From Desulfosudis oleivorans (GTDB lineage Bacteria > Desulfobacterota > Desulfobacteria > Desulfobacterales > SURF-7): a stretch of DNA of 64,000 bases. The position numbers were made by a program, and so were the translations under genes. Numbering within the stretch: position 1 is the first letter of the stretch; each line of letters begins with the position of its first letter. Under the pieces are notes generated by a model, which was not told the origin of the DNA, did no database searches, and saw only the letters and a program-made list of their open reading frames with translations. Below are positions 35,602 to 63,722 of the stretch, piece after piece. The stretch spans positions 1 through 64,000 of the forward strand of contig DYJC01000004.1 in the NCBI GenBank assembly GCA_020723305.1, read 5' to 3'.

Positions 35602-36375
35602 CTACTTACCTTTAAAAACCGGTTTTCTTTTTTCGATGAATGCTGTAATTCCTTCCACAGCATCCTCTGTCGATGCAACTTCTTTGAGTTTTCCACACAG
35701 GTAGTCAAGGGCTTCTTCAACAGGCATCCTATCCATGGTATGGAATGCTTTTTTCCCGATTTTCATCCCAATCGGACTTTTTAAAGACAAGGACTGTAGT
35801 ACATGATCGACCTCTTCATCCAACCGTTCACCGGGAACAACCCTTGTCACCAGCCCCATATTCATCGCTTCCTGCGCACTCAGTTTTTCACCCAGAAGGA
35901 TCATTTCCATTGCTTTTTTCCGCATGACATTCCGGAATATCAGTGCCCCGATCATCATCGGGAAAAGCCCGACATTCACTTCCGGTGTTCCGAACTTGGC
36001 ATCGTCTCTGGCGATCACAATATCACAGGCAAGCATAAATCCGGTTCCGCCGGCCAGACAATATCCATTGATTCTTGCGACTGTTGGTTTGGGAAAACCC
36101 GAAAGCCTCTTTAACAGGTTTGCATAATTGCGAAACGGGTCAATCTTATTTTCACCGGACATCGTATTCCCCAGATCTGCACCGGAACAGAAAGCTTTCT
36201 CACCTGCACCTGTGATACAGACCACCCGGACATCCTGATCCTCCTCTGCCTGATCAAGATATTCCAAAAAAAGGCTGACCGTCTCGGCACTGATTGAATT
36301 CCGGTGTTTTTCCCGGTTGATCATGAAATAGGCAATATTATTGTTCACATTGTACAGTAAATCTTTCTCACTCAT
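35602..36375 (-). CDS. Enoyl-CoA hydratase/isomerase (crotonase family)
   Basis: A 257-residue crotonase-fold protein, with the oxyanion-hole segments GEKAFCSGADLG and ARINGYCLAGGTGFMLACD, and FGTPEVNVGLFPMM holding the catalytic-glutamate helix. In the leucine and Atu pathways the equivalent enzyme hydrates methylglutaconyl-CoA or isohexenylglutaconyl-CoA after carboxylation; the gene order here supports that role. Only family-level assignment is secure. Confidence 0.85.
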   Translation of the reverse strand: MSEKDLLYNVNNNIAYFMINREKHRNSISAETVSLFLEYLDQAEEDQDVRVVCITGAGEKAFCSGADLGNTMSGENKIDPFRNYANLLKRLSGFPKPTVARINGYCLAGGTGFMLACDIVIARDDAKFGTPEVNVGLFPMMIGALIFRNVMRKKAMEMILLGEKLSAQEAMNMGLVTRVVPGERLDEEVDHVLQSLSLKSPIGMKIGKKAFHTMDRMPVEEALDYLCGKLKEVASTEDAVEGITAFIEKRKPVFKGK

Positions 36376-56746: not shown

Positions 56747-58399
56747 TTACGAATTCAGGATCTTTCGGGCGCTTTCATCATTCACATCCGCTACATGGGG
56801 AATGCCTGTTTCTTTTGCAGTCTCCCGGTTTCCAGCAAAGATATCCTGCCGTGTAATCTGATTCACGGAAAATTTTCTTGCGCCGGCCAGAAGCTGCTGC
56901 AGGCCGCATGAAAGTTTATCTACCATTGTCCAGAAAGCGATTGCACCGTAAGGAATATTTTTCATCTCTTTCTTCCCAACCTTTTTCTCGACGTCAAAGT
57001 AGGATGCGAAGATTTCCTTGGCGGTGTTTCCAATGCTTTGTACGGATCTTGGAAGCTCGTTCCAGTTTCCGTTAACATCCGCTTTTCGATCCGGATGGAT
57101 TGCGCCTTCAATGTTGGAACCGACAAAGCCGGGGATCATGATCGCACGTCCCATGCAGATCAGTTTAGCAAATGGTGCTCCCAGAGCCAGCGATTTAAAA
57201 ATATGATCTTCCAGTGCAAAACCACCGGCAAAAGACATATCCACAACACTCTGGCCTTTGGCTGAAAGGATACTTGCATATTCATATGCTTTTGAATGCA
57301 GGTTAATGGAAGGCACGCCCCAGCTCTGCATCATGTTCCAGGGACTCATTCCCGTACCGCCGCCGGAACCATCAATAGTAAGAAGATCCAGTTTTGCGTC
57401 TGTTGCAAACTTGATCGCCATGGCCAGTTCTTCCATACCATATGAACCGGTCTTCAGGGTAATTCTTGAGAAACCAAGGCCTCGAAGATATTCAACTCCG
57501 CTCATGAAGTCTTCACGAACCTGAGCCACTGTATCCAGATTGGTACCTCCGAGACGGCTGTGACGTGCAAAAGATTTGATGGAGCCATTTTCAAACGCGG
57601 CTTGCACTTCAGGACTTCTTGGGTCCGGATCAACTACATACCCACGTTCCTTCAAAAAGAGGGCGTAATCAAGGCTGGTAACCTGGATTTCGCCGCCGAT
57701 ATCTTTGGCTCCCTGACCCCATTTCAGCTCAATGATCACCTTGTCGCCATATTTATCTACAACATATTCGGCAACTCCATTACGGGTATCCTCAACGTTG
57801 AGTTGAACGATGATCGCGCCATATCCATCAAAATATCTAAGATACTGGTTAATCCGCCTCTCCAACTCAGGGGCTTTTTTGATTTTTCCTTTTCTCTCTT
57901 TGCCGTCGGCAATTTCAGATTCCCGGTCAACCCCGACAACATTCTCGCCGATGACAACCGGAATACCACAGAGAGCGCCACCGATTGCGAATGAATCCCA
58001 ATACTTTTGTGCAATAAAAGTGGATCCAAGAGCCCCGGTCATCAGCGGAAGACGGATCTTTGTTTTTACATTCCGGCCGAATTCGGTATTCAGATTCACA
58101 TTCGGGAAAATACAGTCATCCGGGTCATTGCTCATTTTGCTGTGGAGACCATGTGCACCATAAGCATACCCCTGGATACGGAGCGAATTGTATGAAACGC
58201 CAACATGGGTTGTGTTGTTGGATCCGGCTGTTACCAGGCCAAAACTTCTCGGATACAGCAGCTTTCGGCCAACCAGGCTTGATAGCCATGTTTCACACTT
58301 GCCTTCGCAATCGGCCCGACAAAGTGTACAGAGTCCTGATTCTGCAACATTACCACGATTTGTTGTCCCGAGTACGTCATTGTTTTTTGAAAATCTCAT
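56747..58399 (-). CDS. FMN-binding glutamate-synthase-like protein
   Basis: A 550-residue protein containing the glutamate-synthase FMN/TIM-barrel domain but no glutaminase domain, so it is a GltS-domain family protein and not a complete GltB. It has a cysteine-rich N-terminus (CTLCRADCEGKCETW), MTGALGSTFIAQKYWDSFA, IIELKWGQGAKDIGGEI, RHSRLGGTNLDTV, LTIDGSGGGTGMSPWNM and VVDMSFAGGFALEDH. Relatives are predicted to make glutamate or act on other amide donors. ATG 58399 (AAGGAG upstream) fits best; an upstream start at 58471 would translate the regulatory leader. The leader carries an ANTAR-type antitermination switch. Confidence 0.85.
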   Translation of the reverse strand: MRFSKNNDVLGTTNRGNVAESGLCTLCRADCEGKCETWLSSLVGRKLLYPRSFGLVTAGSNNTTHVGVSYNSLRIQGYAYGAHGLHSKMSNDPDDCIFPNVNLNTEFGRNVKTKIRLPLMTGALGSTFIAQKYWDSFAIGGALCGIPVVIGENVVGVDRESEIADGKERKGKIKKAPELERRINQYLRYFDGYGAIIVQLNVEDTRNGVAEYVVDKYGDKVIIELKWGQGAKDIGGEIQVTSLDYALFLKERGYVVDPDPRSPEVQAAFENGSIKSFARHSRLGGTNLDTVAQVREDFMSGVEYLRGLGFSRITLKTGSYGMEELAMAIKFATDAKLDLLTIDGSGGGTGMSPWNMMQSWGVPSINLHSKAYEYASILSAKGQSVVDMSFAGGFALEDHIFKSLALGAPFAKLICMGRAIMIPGFVGSNIEGAIHPDRKADVNGNWNELPRSVQSIGNTAKEIFASYFDVEKKVGKKEMKNIPYGAIAFWTMVDKLSCGLQQLLAGARKFSVNQITRQDIFAGNRETAKETGIPHVADVNDESARKILNS

Positions 58400-58469: not shown

Positions 58470-58552
58470 AAAAAGGCGCCTGTTCTTTTTGAAGAACCAG
58501 ACGCCTTTGTCTATTTCACTTCAGTTGCGAATTCGCAGCACGCCGTTGTGCC
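58470..58552 (-). promoter_or_regulatory. ANTAR-type antitermination leader: two hexaloop hairpins and an overlapping terminator
   Basis: Minus-strand hairpin P1 (58537-58552) is GGCAC-AACGGC-GTGCT; P2 (58499-58512) is AGAC-AAAGGC-GTCT. Both loops are six bases with A1 and G4, the pattern recognised by ANTAR domains. A 15-16-bp terminator (58470-58508) has AAAGGCG paired with CGCCTTT and TTCTT with AAGAA, and ends in five T. P2 uses the terminator's 5' arm, so the two exclude each other. A GAF-ANTAR protein is encoded just upstream. Confidence 0.75.
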
Positions 58553-58584
58553 TTGTTTGATTGCAACTTAAAAAATTTGATTAA

Positions 58585-58613
58585 AATTAACTACACTTAT
58601 TCGATAATGTCAA
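58585..58613 (-). promoter_or_regulatory. Promoter of the leader RNA
   Basis: Minus strand: TTGACA (58608-58613), 17 bases, TTAATT (58585-58590). It would give a leader of about 180 bases containing both hairpins and the terminator. Confidence 0.5.
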
Positions 58614-58711
58614 GAAAGAAATTGAAATAAAGTAAGTTTGAATGAATTCGATGAAAAAAAATTCGAGTTGGAATGTAAGCAGGTAATCAGGAAAGGAAAA
58701 TCAGCAGGAAA

Positions 58712-59431
58712 CTATCCGTAAAACATTTCATCAGAGAGAAGAATGGCCTCAGCCACGCTTCGTATGGATTTGCGGGAATCCATGCTGCGTTTTTGAATCC
58801 AGCGGTACGCCTCATCGATTTTCATCCCACGACGCTTCATCAGGATCTCCTTGGCACGTTCAACAGTCTTGCGCATTTCCAATTCTTCCTGAATCACCCT
58901 GGTTTTTACCATTAACTCTGTATTCAGGATGGCAACCGCTGCCTGGTTTGCAACTGCTGTTAAAAGATTGACCTCGGTATCTGAAAAATCGTAAGGAGTG
59001 GATGTGAAACAGTTCAGGACACCAATCACCTTCTCATCCTTTAATTTGAGAGGGACACCGATCATGGATGCAAGCCCCAGCTTTTTAGCCAGTTCTTTTT
59101 CTTTAAACCGTTTGTTTTTCAATACATCCTTAATGATAAGAGGTTGTTTATGCGTGGCAACGTACCCAACAACCCCTTCATTTGTATTCAACGAACGGTC
59201 CTTGATATATTCAGGAGCAATTGCCTGAGTAGCCTTGAGACGAATTACCGGCGGATTTTCATCTTCATCGATCAACCATAAAGAGCAAATTGTAACCCCC
59301 ATGGCCTGGGCAGTGACCATAACCACCAGTTTCAGAAGATCTTCAAGGTAAAGCTCCGAAGTGATGGCCTTGCTGATATCGGTCAGTGCCCGGATATATT
59401 CATCATATGTTTTTTCATTCAGACGATGCAC
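58712..59431 (-). CDS. GAF-ANTAR RNA-binding antiterminator protein
   Basis: A 239-residue regulator. Residues 15-175 are a GAF ligand-binding domain (LYLEDLLKLVVMVTAQAMGV, EGVVGYVATHKQPL, MIGVPLKLKDEKVIGVLNCF). Residues 180-235 are an ANTAR domain (LEMRKTVERAKEILMKRRGM, IDEAYRWIQKRSMDS, IRSVAEAILL). ANTAR proteins bind paired hexaloop hairpins in leader RNAs and prevent terminator formation; several control nitrogen genes. The start is GTG 59431 after AAAGGTG. It lies immediately upstream of the glutamate-synthase-like gene whose leader carries such hairpins. The GAF domain probably senses a small molecule. The upstream gap 59432-59718 shows no other feature. Confidence 0.9.
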   Translation of the reverse strand: MHRLNEKTYDEYIRALTDISKAITSELYLEDLLKLVVMVTAQAMGVTICSLWLIDEDENPPVIRLKATQAIAPEYIKDRSLNTNEGVVGYVATHKQPLIIKDVLKNKRFKEKELAKKLGLASMIGVPLKLKDEKVIGVLNCFTSTPYDFSDTEVNLLTAVANQAAVAILNTELMVKTRVIQEELEMRKTVERAKEILMKRRGMKIDEAYRWIQKRSMDSRKSIRSVAEAILLSDEMFYG

Positions 59432-59718: not shown

Positions 59719-60690
59719 TTATTCCATGGCAAGCTGACCATGAGCCTTTCCGATCAGATCTGAAATGGAAATTTTCTTACCGGCTAGATAACCGGTTAAC
59801 CCATGATGAATCTCTCTGAAAACATCGGGGTTGACAAACCAGGATGTTCCGATTCCCACCGCTGATGCACCGGCAAGTATATATTCAATCACATCCTGCC
59901 AGCGGGAAATTCCGCCGATACCCATAATCGGTATCTTCCCGGACCTGCACTCCGGTATGCTTCGAAAACAGTCATACACCATAAACAGGCCGACCGGCTT
60001 TATCGCCGGACCGGAAAGCCCTCCGATAATGTTGCCAAGAAGGGGTTTTTGGGTATCGATATCGATCGCCATCCCGCGTACAGTATTGATCATGGACAGC
60101 ACATCCGTGCCCCCCTGAATGGCTGCCCTGGCCGGTATGGTGATATCCGTTACATTCGGGGTGAGCTTTGTGATCACCAGGAGCCTTGGGTCAATCTGTT
60201 TTTTCACGGTTTTCACGATCTGCTCCACCATTTTCGGATCTGTACCAAATGCAGCACCCCCTTTTTTAATGTTGGGGCAGGATACGTTGATTTCCAGACC
60301 GGATATGATCTGTGCTGAATCATGATCGCTCAGATACGCCGCAAGCTCGCCAAATCCCTCAACCGAATCCGCAGAAATATTCACAAAAACCGGCAATTCA
60401 AAATTTGCCAGATGGTGAATCTCATTTTGAATAAAAAACTCCACCCCTTCATTTTGCAATCCAATGGAGTTGAGGATGCCGGTTCGGGTTTCTGCAATAC
60501 GGAATTCAGGATTTCCTTCCTTGGGCTTCAGCGTAACACCCTTGGTCACAAAAGCCCCAAGGCCGGCAAGGATCTGCCCGCTTTTTTCCAGAACCTCGAT
60601 TTCATTGGCATGTCCGGAGGTCCCGGAGGCCGTCATTAAAGGGGATTTCATTACCAAATTTTTTATCTTTACCTGCATCCGATTTTTCAT
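59719..60690 (-). CDS. pyrD: Dihydroorotate dehydrogenase, catalytic subunit (class 1B)
   Basis: PyrD oxidises dihydroorotate to orotate with FMN, in pyrimidine synthesis. The 323-residue protein has MKSPLMTASGTSGHANEIE, NSIGLQNEGVEFF, the catalytic-cysteine loop NVSCPNIKKGG, LTPNVTDIT and GIGGISRWQDVIEYILAGA. Class 1B enzymes need PyrK for electron transfer to NAD; here PyrK is the C-terminal part of the fused upstream gene. The ATG at 60690 overlaps that gene's stop as ATGA and is favoured over ATG 60702. Confidence 0.93.
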   Translation of the reverse strand: MKNRMQVKIKNLVMKSPLMTASGTSGHANEIEVLEKSGQILAGLGAFVTKGVTLKPKEGNPEFRIAETRTGILNSIGLQNEGVEFFIQNEIHHLANFELPVFVNISADSVEGFGELAAYLSDHDSAQIISGLEINVSCPNIKKGGAAFGTDPKMVEQIVKTVKKQIDPRLLVITKLTPNVTDITIPARAAIQGGTDVLSMINTVRGMAIDIDTQKPLLGNIIGGLSGPAIKPVGLFMVYDCFRSIPECRSGKIPIMGIGGISRWQDVIEYILAGASAVGIGTSWFVNPDVFREIHHGLTGYLAGKKISISDLIGKAHGQLAME

Positions 60691-63600
60691 AACTTTTCCC
60701 AATCGATTTCATTTGCGTCAAAAACAGGCCCTTCAACACAGACCCGGGAGTACTGACTCTTCTGATCTTTCTTTGTACGGCACACACAGGACATGCAGAC
60801 ACCGATTCCGCATCCCATCCGTTTTTCAAGAAGAACCTTCATGGGGATGTCAAACACGGATGCAATGCGCTGTAGAACAACCATCATGGGTTTCGGGCCG
60901 CATGCAATGATCATCAAGTTTTCTCTGTTTTTAATTTTTTCCAGATAGGATCGATATTGATCCGTAACCAGACCATAATGGTAATTGTTGTCCGGAATTT
61001 TTTCACTCAACTTTTCATTGTCACGATACTCTCTGGACAAATAGATATCGCAAGGCCGCAAACCGATTCCGCCAAGCTCTTCAATATAAACATATGCCTT
61101 TTCCGGCTCCTCTGCAAAGGACTTCCCATACGGCGTCTCCCGGAGAGATTCAATCCGATCAATACCGATAAATGCCTTGAGATCAAAGGAGTAGAACTTC
61201 AATGCCTGACCAAAAAAGACCAGCGGTGCCATCCCCACCCCGCCGCCGACCAGATGTACCTCGGAAATACCCTGAGACCGCCATTCAGGGATATGGGTAT
61301 ATTTCCCCAACGGCCCCAGCATACGAACCTGATCCCCTTTCTTCAAGTCGGTCATTTCCCGGGTTCCAATTCCGCCTTCCATCCGCTTATAAAAAATCTC
61401 AAACTTGTGGGGGAAAACCGTATGAGTAATACCCGCCAAAACAGGGGGAAGGGATAATGTATGATGATATCCCCACTCAAAACAGTGATAGTATGCCCGC
61501 TGAATCCCAAATGGCCTTTTCAGATAGGATTTCGGCATCAGGTCAATCCTGATTTTTTTCCCAGGCTGATTTTTCCCTGTAGTATAAGCATTCTGATAAT
61601 AGATCTGATCCATCTTCTTCCGCTGACCGATAGGCAAAGTATCCACCATCACGAACTGGCCGGGGCCGATATTTTTCATATCCGATGTCTGGAATTCAAG
61701 CTTGTAATGCATGGGTTTTCCTTTAAGCCCGACCGGTGAATTCCGGAGTACTTCAGCCCTGAAATGTCGGATTCCCTGTTTCCGGCTTGGGACGGATCGT
61801 TTGGAAAAACGATCTGCCGGATCCCTGAACAGATCCGGCTGGATCTTTCCTGCCTGCTGACAAAGATCCGGATAGCAGACAAAAAATCCCCTGGGCCAGT
61901 TATCCGCCCATTCAATCTGCCTGCATGAATTCATCTGCAGCCGGTTTTCAAAGATCAGATAGCAGACGCGATGAAACGATTGCCGATCCTGTTGAAAAAT
62001 TTTTCCGGCAACCTGTTTATGCTTTTTTTCATTTCCAGGATCATAAAAACAGAAATAGATCTGCCTGCCATCCGGGTGTTCTGCAGCAATATCAATAGTG
62101 GGAAAATTCTTGTCATGAGAATGCAACGCTTCCGGCCGGATCTCCCTGTCTGCTTCAGACCAATCAAACTGATTTGGTTCTGCAAAAACAATCCTATACC
62201 CGTCTTTTGCAAGGATTGTCTCCAGCAAGATCAGACATAATCTGTTGTATGCCTTCTGATTTTCCGATGCTTCAGATAAAAGTCTTACCATCGCTGACTG
62301 GATAGGATGGGGAAATTGTGTTTCATGAAGAGAAACCGCTTTTGTATTTTTATCGGAAGGCTCCGGGCCTGGCCTTCTGTTGTTTCGGCGGGTCCGGACA
62401 AGAAAGCCATATTTTTCAGCCTCTGTTTTTCCCTGTTTCTTTTTCCGGCAAGGAATCAGACTTTTTACCGATTCCAACTCCTGCAATTCATATCCAGCCG
62501 CAGAAGACCTATCCTGCAAAGCCTCCCAGGTCTCTTTTTTTGAAGCACGATAGGAAAGAATGATCCGGCAGGAATCATCCGTGCTTGCCGCTATCTTTTC
62601 CAGCAGTTTTTGAAACGGTTCAAGATTATCCTCAATGGATTGTAATTCTGTATTCCAGAACCGTTTTTGATCCACTCCTTTACGCAGCCAGGCTCCCTGA
62701 AATTCAGAAGCAGACAGACAAATGCCTGCCTGATCCCCAGGCGGATCCAAAAAAACATGGGTAATTTTCGGCCTCTGTGGGAATGGAAATTCCAGGCAAT
62801 CTGAATGGATGATGGTTACATGGTCATCCGTATCCTCGAAAGCCTTTATTGAATCCGAAAACCGAACAAAAGACAATAATGCGTTTGTTGTTTTTTTGTT
62901 CTGCATCCACTGTTCAAATTGATCTTTAAATGCTTTCCAGACGTTCACTTCCAATGAAACAGAAGCTTTTCGAATTCCCGGAATCTCTGCATCTGATATT
63001 GGATTGGATGAATTTCCGGATATCCCTTGTGTGATACATTGAAACAAAGTGGAAATGAAAACAGATTGAAAAAACTCCCGGCTTTTTTTCATGGAAATGC
63101 TGTTGATTCCATGAAACAGGTCAGCCAGAGATGCCAGATTCCGCTGTGTAAACTGGTCATGGATATAATATGAATTTTTGCTTCCCGTGCCTTGAATTTT
63201 TTTCCTGGGGAACCAGTTTTCAGGCGATGTTCTGGACTGTGTAATCTGCCGTCTGACCTGTGAATCGGTTAATCGCTCTGTCCCTTTGAATCCGCAATTG
63301 ATGCAGGCTGCCTGAACCGCATCCGGACGGATTTCATCTTCCCTGCCCTCTGTACTTTTCCAAATTAACTGCTCAAACCCGATCTTTTTACCGCATCCAG
63401 GGCATAAAATGGTGTATCGATCACAGATTCTGTCTGCAACAGCTTCCCGGACGCTTTGAAACTCTTCTCTTAAAGCAAACAGCCCCATTGGCTGAAGCAG
63501 AACCCGTGTCAATAAAACAGCCATTGGGTTCAGATCTCCGGCAACAACCCGGGCACCTTGCTGCAAGGCAACAAGCGCCGGTATACCGGCTCCGCAAAAA

Positions 63601-63722
63601 GGATCCAGAACAAGATCACCGGTTTTTACATCTGAAAAAAGCAGATCCAGAACACTGGTTTGACTTTGTTCCCAATATGGAAGGGAACAGGATAAATGAT
63701 CCGATACTCTTTTTTTTCCCAT
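60687..63722 (-). CDS. Fusion of DNA-methylase-like domain with PyrK electron-transfer subunit
   Basis: A 1011-residue protein. Residues 1-450 look like a class-I N6/N4 DNA or RNA methyltransferase: VLDPFCGAGIP (39-49, motif I), AGDLNPMAV, a four-cysteine zinc ribbon (C107, C110, C140, C143), and the catalytic-type motif DPPG (326-329). Residues 480-640 look like an associated domain of unknown type. Residues about 650-1011 are PyrK: FAD-binding RPFGI (736-740), the NAD loop GGGVGMAP (826-833), and a 2Fe-2S site with C971, C976, C979 and C995. A segment of ~100 residues is inserted in the FAD domain. It overlaps pyrD by four bases. I know of no function that needs both activities; moonlighting or a fusion joined by accident are options. 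Confidence 0.8.
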   Translation of the reverse strand: MGKKRVSDHLSCSLPYWEQSQTSVLDLLFSDVKTGDLVLDPFCGAGIPALVALQQGARVVAGDLNPMAVLLTRVLLQPMGLFALREEFQSVREAVADRICDRYTILCPGCGKKIGFEQLIWKSTEGREDEIRPDAVQAACINCGFKGTERLTDSQVRRQITQSRTSPENWFPRKKIQGTGSKNSYYIHDQFTQRNLASLADLFHGINSISMKKSREFFQSVFISTLFQCITQGISGNSSNPISDAEIPGIRKASVSLEVNVWKAFKDQFEQWMQNKKTTNALLSFVRFSDSIKAFEDTDDHVTIIHSDCLEFPFPQRPKITHVFLDPPGDQAGICLSASEFQGAWLRKGVDQKRFWNTELQSIEDNLEPFQKLLEKIAASTDDSCRIILSYRASKKETWEALQDRSSAAGYELQELESVKSLIPCRKKKQGKTEAEKYGFLVRTRRNNRRPGPEPSDKNTKAVSLHETQFPHPIQSAMVRLLSEASENQKAYNRLCLILLETILAKDGYRIVFAEPNQFDWSEADREIRPEALHSHDKNFPTIDIAAEHPDGRQIYFCFYDPGNEKKHKQVAGKIFQQDRQSFHRVCYLIFENRLQMNSCRQIEWADNWPRGFFVCYPDLCQQAGKIQPDLFRDPADRFSKRSVPSRKQGIRHFRAEVLRNSPVGLKGKPMHYKLEFQTSDMKNIGPGQFVMVDTLPIGQRKKMDQIYYQNAYTTGKNQPGKKIRIDLMPKSYLKRPFGIQRAYYHCFEWGYHHTLSLPPVLAGITHTVFPHKFEIFYKRMEGGIGTREMTDLKKGDQVRMLGPLGKYTHIPEWRSQGISEVHLVGGGVGMAPLVFFGQALKFYSFDLKAFIGIDRIESLRETPYGKSFAEEPEKAYVYIEELGGIGLRPCDIYLSREYRDNEKLSEKIPDNNYHYGLVTDQYRSYLEKIKNRENLMIIACGPKPMMVVLQRIASVFDIPMKVLLEKRMGCGIGVCMSCVCRTKKDQKSQYSRVCVEGPVFDANEIDWEKL

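Follow-up and report, generated by a model that had tools for sequence, protein, structure and literature searches.

A putative ANTAR-type antitermination leader before a glutamate-synthase-domain gene in Desulfosudis oleivorans

In the genome of Desulfosudis oleivorans, a gene coding for a GAF-ANTAR regulator is followed on the same strand by a gene for a glutamate-synthase-domain protein, which raises the question of whether the 312 nt between them (minus strand) contain an RNA switch, and whether the neighboring protein operates it. The locus lies in the window, a stretch of 64,000 nucleotides of contig DYJC01000004.1 that was analyzed as a whole. The original prediction had proposed such a pair of regulator and leader. 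Its observation is confirmed here, and comparison among genomes lends good support to its interpretation: the leader is very probably an ANTAR-type antitermination switch of the EutV/NasR type, worked by the only ANTAR protein of the genome (Table 1).

Table 1. Features of the regulator-leader-target locus in the window, and genes of the second predicted target locus on contig C4 of the same genome
Feature	Position	Strand	Basis or remark
Target gene, 550-aa stand-alone glutamate-synthase-domain protein	56747-58399	minus	Pfam PF01645
Intrinsic terminator: hairpin 58508-58472 and U5 58474-58470	58470-58508	minus	fold
Hairpin P2, UAGAC-AAAGGC-GUCUG; hexaloop AAAGGC at 58508-58503	58498-58513	minus	overlaps terminator
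Hairpin P1, GGCAC-AACGGC-GUGCU; hexaloop AACGGC at 58547-58542	58537-58552	minus	
Promoter-like block TTGACA-N16-GTTAAT	58586-58613	minus	TTGAC kept in four close relatives; putative function
GAF-ANTAR regulator gene, 239 aa from GTG	58712-59431	minus	Pfam GAF and ANTAR
ANTAR RNA-binding domain	58739-58894	minus	Pfam; aligned with EutV, NasR, AmiR and Rv1626
GAF sensor domain, residues 29-168	58928-59347	minus	Pfam
C4 genes 1-4: GXGXG protein, iron-sulfur protein, CCG protein, 1505-aa flavoprotein			
C4 genes 5-10: FlpD/MvhD, MetV (MTHFR C-terminal), second FlpD/MvhD, MTHFR (MetF), two Glu_synthase-domain proteins			

The regulator and its leader RNA

The regulator matches the Pfam GAF profile with 79.1 bits and the ANTAR profile PF03861 with 68.3 bits (cut-off 27.3), both above the curated cut-offs, and the GAF-ANTAR gene predicted just upstream on the same strand is thus in place. 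Its best-matching named contigs are Desulfobacterales and other deltaproteobacterial records. A search of the genome (5.4 Mb, 47 contigs) detected a single ANTAR gene, that of the regulator itself, so the label "cognate", under which it had been proposed, is well founded; the ANTAR protein that an ANTAR RNA calls for in its own genome is here encoded by an adjacent gene. The RNA contacts Arg142, Lys143, Lys149, Tyr164 and Arg175 of EutV have their equivalents in R187, K188, K194, Y209 and R220 of the regulator, and the contacts Glu160, Arg168 and Arg177 are replaced by I, Q and S; in this mapping, chain numbering and published numbering are taken to differ by two residues, as deduced from residue identities. 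The column of Y209, the counterpart of the tyrosine whose aromatic ring stacks on loop G4 in EutV, contains Y in 16, F in 4 and H in 1 of the 21 rows aligned (alignment A1). The aromatic residue and the basic RNA contacts expected of the ANTAR family thus appear to be present in the regulator. The AlphaFold model (mean pLDDT 84.4) exhibits a GAF domain, a single long helix (residues 151-201) and then two helices.

The signal to which the GAF domain responds can be approached through its structural relatives. The best PDB match is the GAF domain of PtsP (3ci6), first by sequence and occupying ranks 1 and 2 by fold, while a second PtsP GAF domain (3trc) ranks third in the fold comparison and sixth in the sequence comparison; identity to the PtsP GAF domain is 23-27%. 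The top NCBIfam match of the regulator is NifA, at 66 of 529 bits and far under the cut-off. Glutamine reportedly binds the PtsP GAF domain and inhibits EI-Ntr (according to PMC4848567), and the GAF domain of NifA is described as binding 2-oxoglutarate (PMC8219145). The signal is therefore tentatively proposed to be a metabolite that reports nitrogen status, for example glutamine or 2-oxoglutarate. This is a reasoned guess, since other GAF domains, among them those of cyclic-nucleotide phosphodiesterases, also match that of the regulator well.

The two hexaloop hairpins with A1 and G4 (AACGGC and AAAGGC) lie in the leader where they had been predicted, on the minus strand. Both stems have 5 bp, compared with the at least 3 bp under six-base loops that are expected of ANTAR RNAs, and both loops are closed by the C:G pair which, together with A1 and G4, is preferred in the SELEX experiments described for NasR (PMC7496416). 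The terminator takes 11 bases from the loop and 3' arm of P2, which together with five more pairs make up its 5' arm, so that P2 and terminator are mutually exclusive; the terminator hairpin folds with about -20.3 kcal/mol, versus -3.3 for P2 alone. The default fold of the 101-nt core consists of P1 and the terminator (z = -4.16), and none of 200 shuffles was as stable. Over the full 312 nt the signal is weaker (z = -1.66), with 3 of 100 shuffles reaching the stability of the leader. Of the "strong U-tract terminator" originally proposed, the overlap with P2 and the stable hairpin stood up, while the U-tract was described too generously: it comprises just five U, three of them paired in the fold, and the terminator is not among the calls of a simple consensus terminator scan. 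Upstream of P1, the TTGAC of the TTGACA element (58613-58608) and the sequence downstream of it are conserved in four close relatives (alignment A5), and the leader therefore probably has its own promoter, with a putative transcript start just upstream of P1. The block is absent from the listing of a consensus promoter scan.

These elements suggest the following mode of action. By default, the loop and 3' arm of P2 would pair with the downstream sequence, forming the terminator before the glutamate-synthase-domain gene. Once the GAF domain is active, a GAF-ANTAR dimer would hold the hexaloops of P1 and P2; P2, being held, would stay folded, and RNA polymerase would read through. The same protein would act in trans on a tandem leader ahead of a ten-gene glutamate-synthase/Hdr/MvhD/MetVF operon. 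Counting against such a mechanism are the 23-nt linker between P1 and P2, the lack of G4 in P2 of the tandem leader, the replaced equivalents of EutV Glu160, Arg168 and Arg177, and the short U-tract.

How general the terminator is can be judged from the hits of R1, a covariance model trained on leaders beside ANTAR genes. The model gave 120 hits (74 + 46), of which 117 were analyzed; L075:1594 was dropped as a duplicate of the L221 site, L219:6798 as a partial hit to the opposite strand, and L056:7040 as a weak second hit. Repeated leaders were merged to 105 or 106 distinct ones, the merging keys differing. In 102 of 105 distinct leaders, a count made without shuffle control, a terminator can be folded that precedes a T run and draws at least 4 of its bases from the loop or 3' arm of P2. 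The median energies are -19.9 kcal/mol (terminator) and -3.2 kcal/mol (P2 by itself). This bears on the possibility that the protein binds P1 and P2 with a different outcome, be it translational control, RNA stability or binding under nitrogen excess with the opposite sign. Ramesh 2012 notes ANTAR RNAs that have no terminator and possibly act on translation (PMC3369931), and sequence gives no direction of response; yet the P2-overlapping terminator is nearly universal in the family, and the probable ribosome-binding site of the target, placed by eye at about 58413-58406, lies outside the motif, some 57 nt past the terminator. A different outcome is thus regarded as improbable, and antitermination is retained as the preferred reading.

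Conservation, covariation and co-occurrence with ANTAR genes

The architecture itself is not sufficient proof. When the pattern was defined as two A1/G4 hexaloops on stems of at least 4 bp, a T5 run and at least 6 nt of P2 complement, the 64-kb window contained two matches, one of them the leader, and 15 of 60 dinucleotide shuffles of the window contained at least one. The second match, near 35654, is read as chance; it lies at the end of a coding frame and has no R1 hit, the leader being the sole hit of R1 in the window. Since the architecture alone occurs in shuffled sequence at this rate, it is conservation, together with the joint occurrence of motif and ANTAR genes, that argues for a genuine element. 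The shuffles, together with the position of the terminator between the two genes, are also what favors the view that the hairpins merely end the transcript of the regulator gene or act as a generic attenuator, with hexaloops by chance and no protein site. P1, however, lies outside the terminator and is nevertheless conserved and covarying, which largely refutes that view.

Covariation was assessed in alignment A2, which contains 37 of the 44 rows from loci fetched for GAF-ANTAR genes; rows with unusual spacing and one near-duplicate were left out, and L118 was trimmed to its second P1. Selection of the rows required A1, G4, the closing C-G pair, a P1 of at least 4 bp and the P2 core GACA..G..GTC, and where several P1 candidates occurred the longest stem (up to 6 bp) was chosen. 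The invariance of A1, G4 and the closing pair in A2 accordingly proves nothing, and only the P1 pairs beyond the fourth are independent evidence, leaning slightly in favor of pairing. Of these, the pair 3-18 forms in 35 of the 37 rows and shows five pair types, and the pair 2-19 forms in 29; double changes number 11 and 9, respectively. Scored for covariation as a whole, the structure surpasses all 500 shuffles. The same is true of a second alignment, A4, which comprises 46 model hits from named genomes and was fitted to the model. Here, G-C to A-U changes occur in P2 in 5 rows. On one of the five measures applied, the number of pairs in which both sides have changed, the alignment is no better than its shuffles (6 vs 5.3). 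Covariation in P2 is slight, with inner pairs that hardly vary and an outer pair that fails in 20 of 37 rows in A2 and 27 of 46 in A4.

Among the 106 distinct leaders found by the model, A1 and G4 are both present in P1 of 99, in P2 of 99 and in both hairpins of 92, bases which the model favors and which A2 required. The closing C-G pair, likewise required in A2, is found under P1 in 101 and under P2 in all 106. One leader, L237, does not have a canonical P1 loop. Strain-named relatives with the motif include Desulfosarcina widdelii PP31 (L133) and Desulfatitalea alkaliphila M08but (L103).

The distribution of the motif follows that of the ANTAR genes. At least one ANTAR gene occurs in 60 of 96 related genomes, that of D. 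oleivorans included, and R1 finds the motif in 53 of the 96 (E <= 0.01): in 50 of the 60 ANTAR-positive genomes and in 3 of the 36 ANTAR-negative ones (Fisher p ~2e-13, a value which ignores kinship and so overstates independence). Within the order this co-occurrence is partly built in, because R1 was trained on ANTAR-adjacent leaders. Across the phylum, 51 of 395 genomes carry the motif (E <= 0.001), comprising 50 of 165 with an ANTAR gene vs 1 of 230 without, and outside the order of D. oleivorans 39 of the 40 motif genomes have an ANTAR gene. The remaining 115 of the 165 ANTAR genomes give no motif hit, and the ANTAR proteins of the phylum must therefore also do other things or read other RNAs. 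Among the relatives, 10 of the 60 ANTAR-positive genomes lack a hit at E <= 0.01, one of which (G079) has a weak one (E 0.026).

A stricter comparison considers the leader of the target gene itself. Orthologues of the target were found in 62 of the 96 related genomes, that of D. oleivorans included (E <= 1e-100), with 45 to 97% identity in the others; one place per genome was counted, leaving out second copies in G077 and G090. Within the 600 nt before the orthologue, the motif is present in 41 of the 45 genomes that have an ANTAR gene (own included), compared with 1 of the 17 that have none (Fisher p ~3e-10, kinship ignored). The two hexaloops are thus kept in the homologous leaders, and the original prediction, which would have fallen with their loss, passed this check. 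The four ANTAR-positive genomes without the motif before the orthologue are G017, G051, G076 and G079, and the sole ANTAR-negative genome with it is G042, which is 65% complete. Upstream of the 16 motif-less orthologues of ANTAR-negative genomes, no dual hexaloop was found by pattern in the available upstream DNA, and the best R1 scores there had E-values of 0.41 and 0.63; three of these leaders (G049, G054, G084) are cut by contig ends. The loss of the motif along with ANTAR, and its occurrence before the same functional class of genes away from ANTAR genes, both speak further against a mere terminator or attenuator, which on this evidence is highly improbable. That some other trans-acting factor reads the leader is hardly credible. 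In its favor are the motif hits in three of the 36 ANTAR-less relatives (G009, G042, G093) and in one of the 230 such genomes of the phylum (G206). Of these four, however, three (G009, G042, G206) are 65-80% complete, and G093, at 98% completeness, is a draft of about 290 contigs. Moreover, the genome of D. oleivorans has a single detected ANTAR gene, and 25 of the 59 loci fetched have the target gene no more than 700 nt after the regulator.

The target gene and the predicted regulon

The target had been described as glutamate-synthase-like, and this holds insofar as it matches Glu_synthase (PF01645) in part, with 44.9 bits over 117 residues (296-412). It is a stand-alone synthase-domain protein and not a complete glutamate synthase, which would comprise amidotransferase, FMN synthase and GXGXG parts. 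A search by sequence found no PDB relative of it at E <= 0.001.

The family of leaders is associated with a narrow range of functions. Of the 106 distinct leaders, 75 precede the family of this target, 15 an operon of the mvhD-metV type, five a GXGXG/amidotransferase gene or similar, four a glutamate dehydrogenase gene, one a full-length GltB gene and one (L237) the gene for the carbamoyl-phosphate synthase small chain, CarA. By our own assignment, genes of glutamate or ammonium assimilation follow 101 of the 106, the other five being unassigned, cut off or different; the genes downstream of L219, L119, L164 and L145 were assigned by eye. The downstream proteins of L225 and L230 (391-395 aa) gave no Pfam match and are presumably amidotransferase-like. 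At the mvhD-metV loci a glutamate-synthase-domain gene is found downstream in 13 of 15, and L134 and L145 are cut by contig ends. Outside the order, the motif precedes a PII gene and an ammonium transporter gene at L273, and at L271 an ammonium transporter gene lies about 0.5 kb downstream of it. These associations suggest that a known type of ANTAR switch is widely used in the phylum for ammonium and glutamate genes.

In the genome of D. oleivorans itself, R1 gives three hits (E <= 0.01), namely the leader in the window and two tandem modules on contig C4, which are 82 nt long, 87% identical and 130 nt apart. The tandem leader precedes ten same-strand genes (Table 1; loci L211 and L246, about 21.4-35.9 kb), which may form one operon with more of the glutamate-synthase parts than the target in the window. 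The amidotransferase match of its GXGXG protein is just under the cut-off; the iron-sulfur protein is presumably HdrC-like, the CCG protein HdrB-like and the 1505-aa flavoprotein HdrA/GltD-like. The gene content suggests a glutamate synthase perhaps fed through an Hdr/MvhD electron route. In both tandem copies the P2 loop is AAAUGC, with U4 and not the expected G4, and the corresponding leader of a relative in the same genus (G001) has AAAGGC.

Several further arrangements were observed at related loci. At L088 (3679-3793) two P2-like hairpins (AGACAAAGGCGUCU) and two serial terminator-like stretches are followed by a glutamate-synthase-domain gene, so repeated modules also arise outside the genome of D. 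oleivorans. In the leader of an mvhD-metV-metF operon at L228 (5750-5930, minus strand), a second P2-terminator-like unit (GACAAAGGUGUC) comes after the first, and a gene for a type III glutamine synthetase (Pfam GSIII_N) lies upstream on the other strand. A gene with a response-regulator receiver domain follows the target at L255, L256 and L219, that of L255 being recognized by eye from its similar start, or directly follows the leader at L042. Elsewhere in the window, a frame of 1011 aa (60687-63722, minus strand) combines a DNA-methylase-like N-terminal part with a C-terminal part like the dihydroorotate dehydrogenase electron-transfer subunit (PyrK-like), and adjoins pyrD; the two parts also lie in line, as separate matches, in relatives G001 and G003.

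A broader proposal would make the GAF-ANTAR protein a direct sensor of glutamine or 2-oxoglutarate that runs an ancient antitermination regulon for ammonium assimilation throughout the Desulfobacterota, its dual hexaloops being bridged over linkers about twice those of EutV by a different dimer geometry. Taken as a whole, this proposal is doubtful; if true, it would describe a one-protein, RNA-based nitrogen-status system.

Comparison with known ANTAR systems

The eut leaders of Enterococcus faecalis, bound by EutV, share with the present leader the two A1/G4 hexaloop hairpins and a P2 that overlaps an intrinsic terminator, and their protein shares R142, K143, K149, Y164 and R175 with the regulator. 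The differences lie in the sensor, which is a phosphorylated receiver in EutV and a GAF domain here, in the function, which is ethanolamine use there and glutamate synthesis here, and in the linker, which has 5-12 nt in eut and 23 nt here and is thus not of the short eut-like kind. In the family as a whole the linker ranges from 7 to 45 nt, with a median of 17 (measured from a 6-bp P1). Lengthening the linker of eutP to 14 nt is reported to reduce induction by EutV drastically, while the general 2012 definition of ANTAR RNAs, as worded in the same source, allows a variable linker (PMC3369931).

An extra helix enclosing P1 and giving P2 a EutV-like spacing was considered, and is unproven rather than excluded. 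Such a helix can form in the window leader and in some relatives. In 98 leaders, chosen for having both A1 and G4 in P1 as well as 50 nt of upstream sequence, neither residual spacing nor upstream pairing stands out clearly against shuffled upstream sequence: the spacing would be 5-14 nt in 48 of the 98, compared with 43.4% of shuffles, and the upstream pairs exceed the mean of their own shuffles in 49. The mean energy gain is somewhat higher than with the shuffled sequence (11.3 vs 9.0 kcal/mol).

NasR and the nasF leader of Klebsiella oxytoca are similar in that a two-hairpin leader serves nitrogen metabolism and that sensor and ANTAR domain share one polypeptide. The sensor of NasR is of the NIT type and responds to nitrate, in contrast to the GAF domain here, and its target function is nitrate assimilation, as opposed to ammonium and glutamate assimilation. 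With regard to EI-Ntr (PtsP) and NifA, whose GAF domains resemble that of the regulator, the difference lies in the output, which is here predicted to be RNA binding.

Among the families in Rfam, P11 (RF00625) and narK RNA (RF03032) both align GACAAAGGCGUC/GACAAAGACGUC (P2) with the leader, and P11 also its terminator. P11 scores 33.4 bits (E 7.7e-6) against a gathering score of 70, and narK RNA 14.5 against 43.2 (58475-58624, minus strand); neither the window leader nor any of 20 related loci attains the gathering score of a known Rfam family. The hairpin aligned by both, P11 being a Pseudomonas "sRNA", is GACAAAG-CGUC, and these families may themselves be ANTAR leaders.

Desulfotomaculum reducens, a Firmicute, offers a precedent. 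ANTAR RNAs were predicted before its glutamate synthase genes by Ramesh 2012, who also predicted a nitrogenase regulon for Pelobacter carbinolicus and linked ANTAR RNAs to nitrogen metabolism in general (PMC3369931). A dual hexaloop before glutamate synthase genes and a nitrogen-metabolism regulon are thus common to both cases; the earlier prediction came from an eut-seeded model and, in the relevant passages of that source, is not tied to a GAF-ANTAR protein. Leaders from Desulfobacterota may be listed among the same predictions. Hence, of the claim that the locus is a new instance, the gene pair and its target appear to be new, while its kind had been predicted in 2012. ANTAR proteins with GAF or PAS sensors are mentioned by Ramesh 2012, where, in the passages concerned, none had been characterized (PMC3369931); the GAF-ANTAR architecture is named once in the pertinent text of the NasR study (PMC7496416), and a Streptomyces ANTAR-GAF protein is called one of unknown function (PMC12838073). 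A search of the open-access literature, judged by titles and the starts of abstracts, returned no study of this protein-RNA pair among the matches listed.

By the 2012 definition (PMC3369931) and the 2022 structure paper (PMC8934654), so far as their relevant passages go, the leader and its protein are, judged from sequence, an ANTAR target RNA with its protein. The GAF-ANTAR protein has a defined predicted RNA target and a predicted regulon, is the only family member in its genome and has few candidate ligands, which makes it testable in one tube. The system also points to a possible means of controlling ammonium assimilation in many sulfate-reducing bacteria, and its naturally occurring long-linker RNAs could be used to study how an ANTAR dimer reaches both hairpins. 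What looks distinctive, in comparison with the known systems, is a GAF-ANTAR regulon with linkers longer than those of EutV, a GAF domain closest to that of the glutamine sensor PtsP, and a regulon that is seemingly shared across the phylum.
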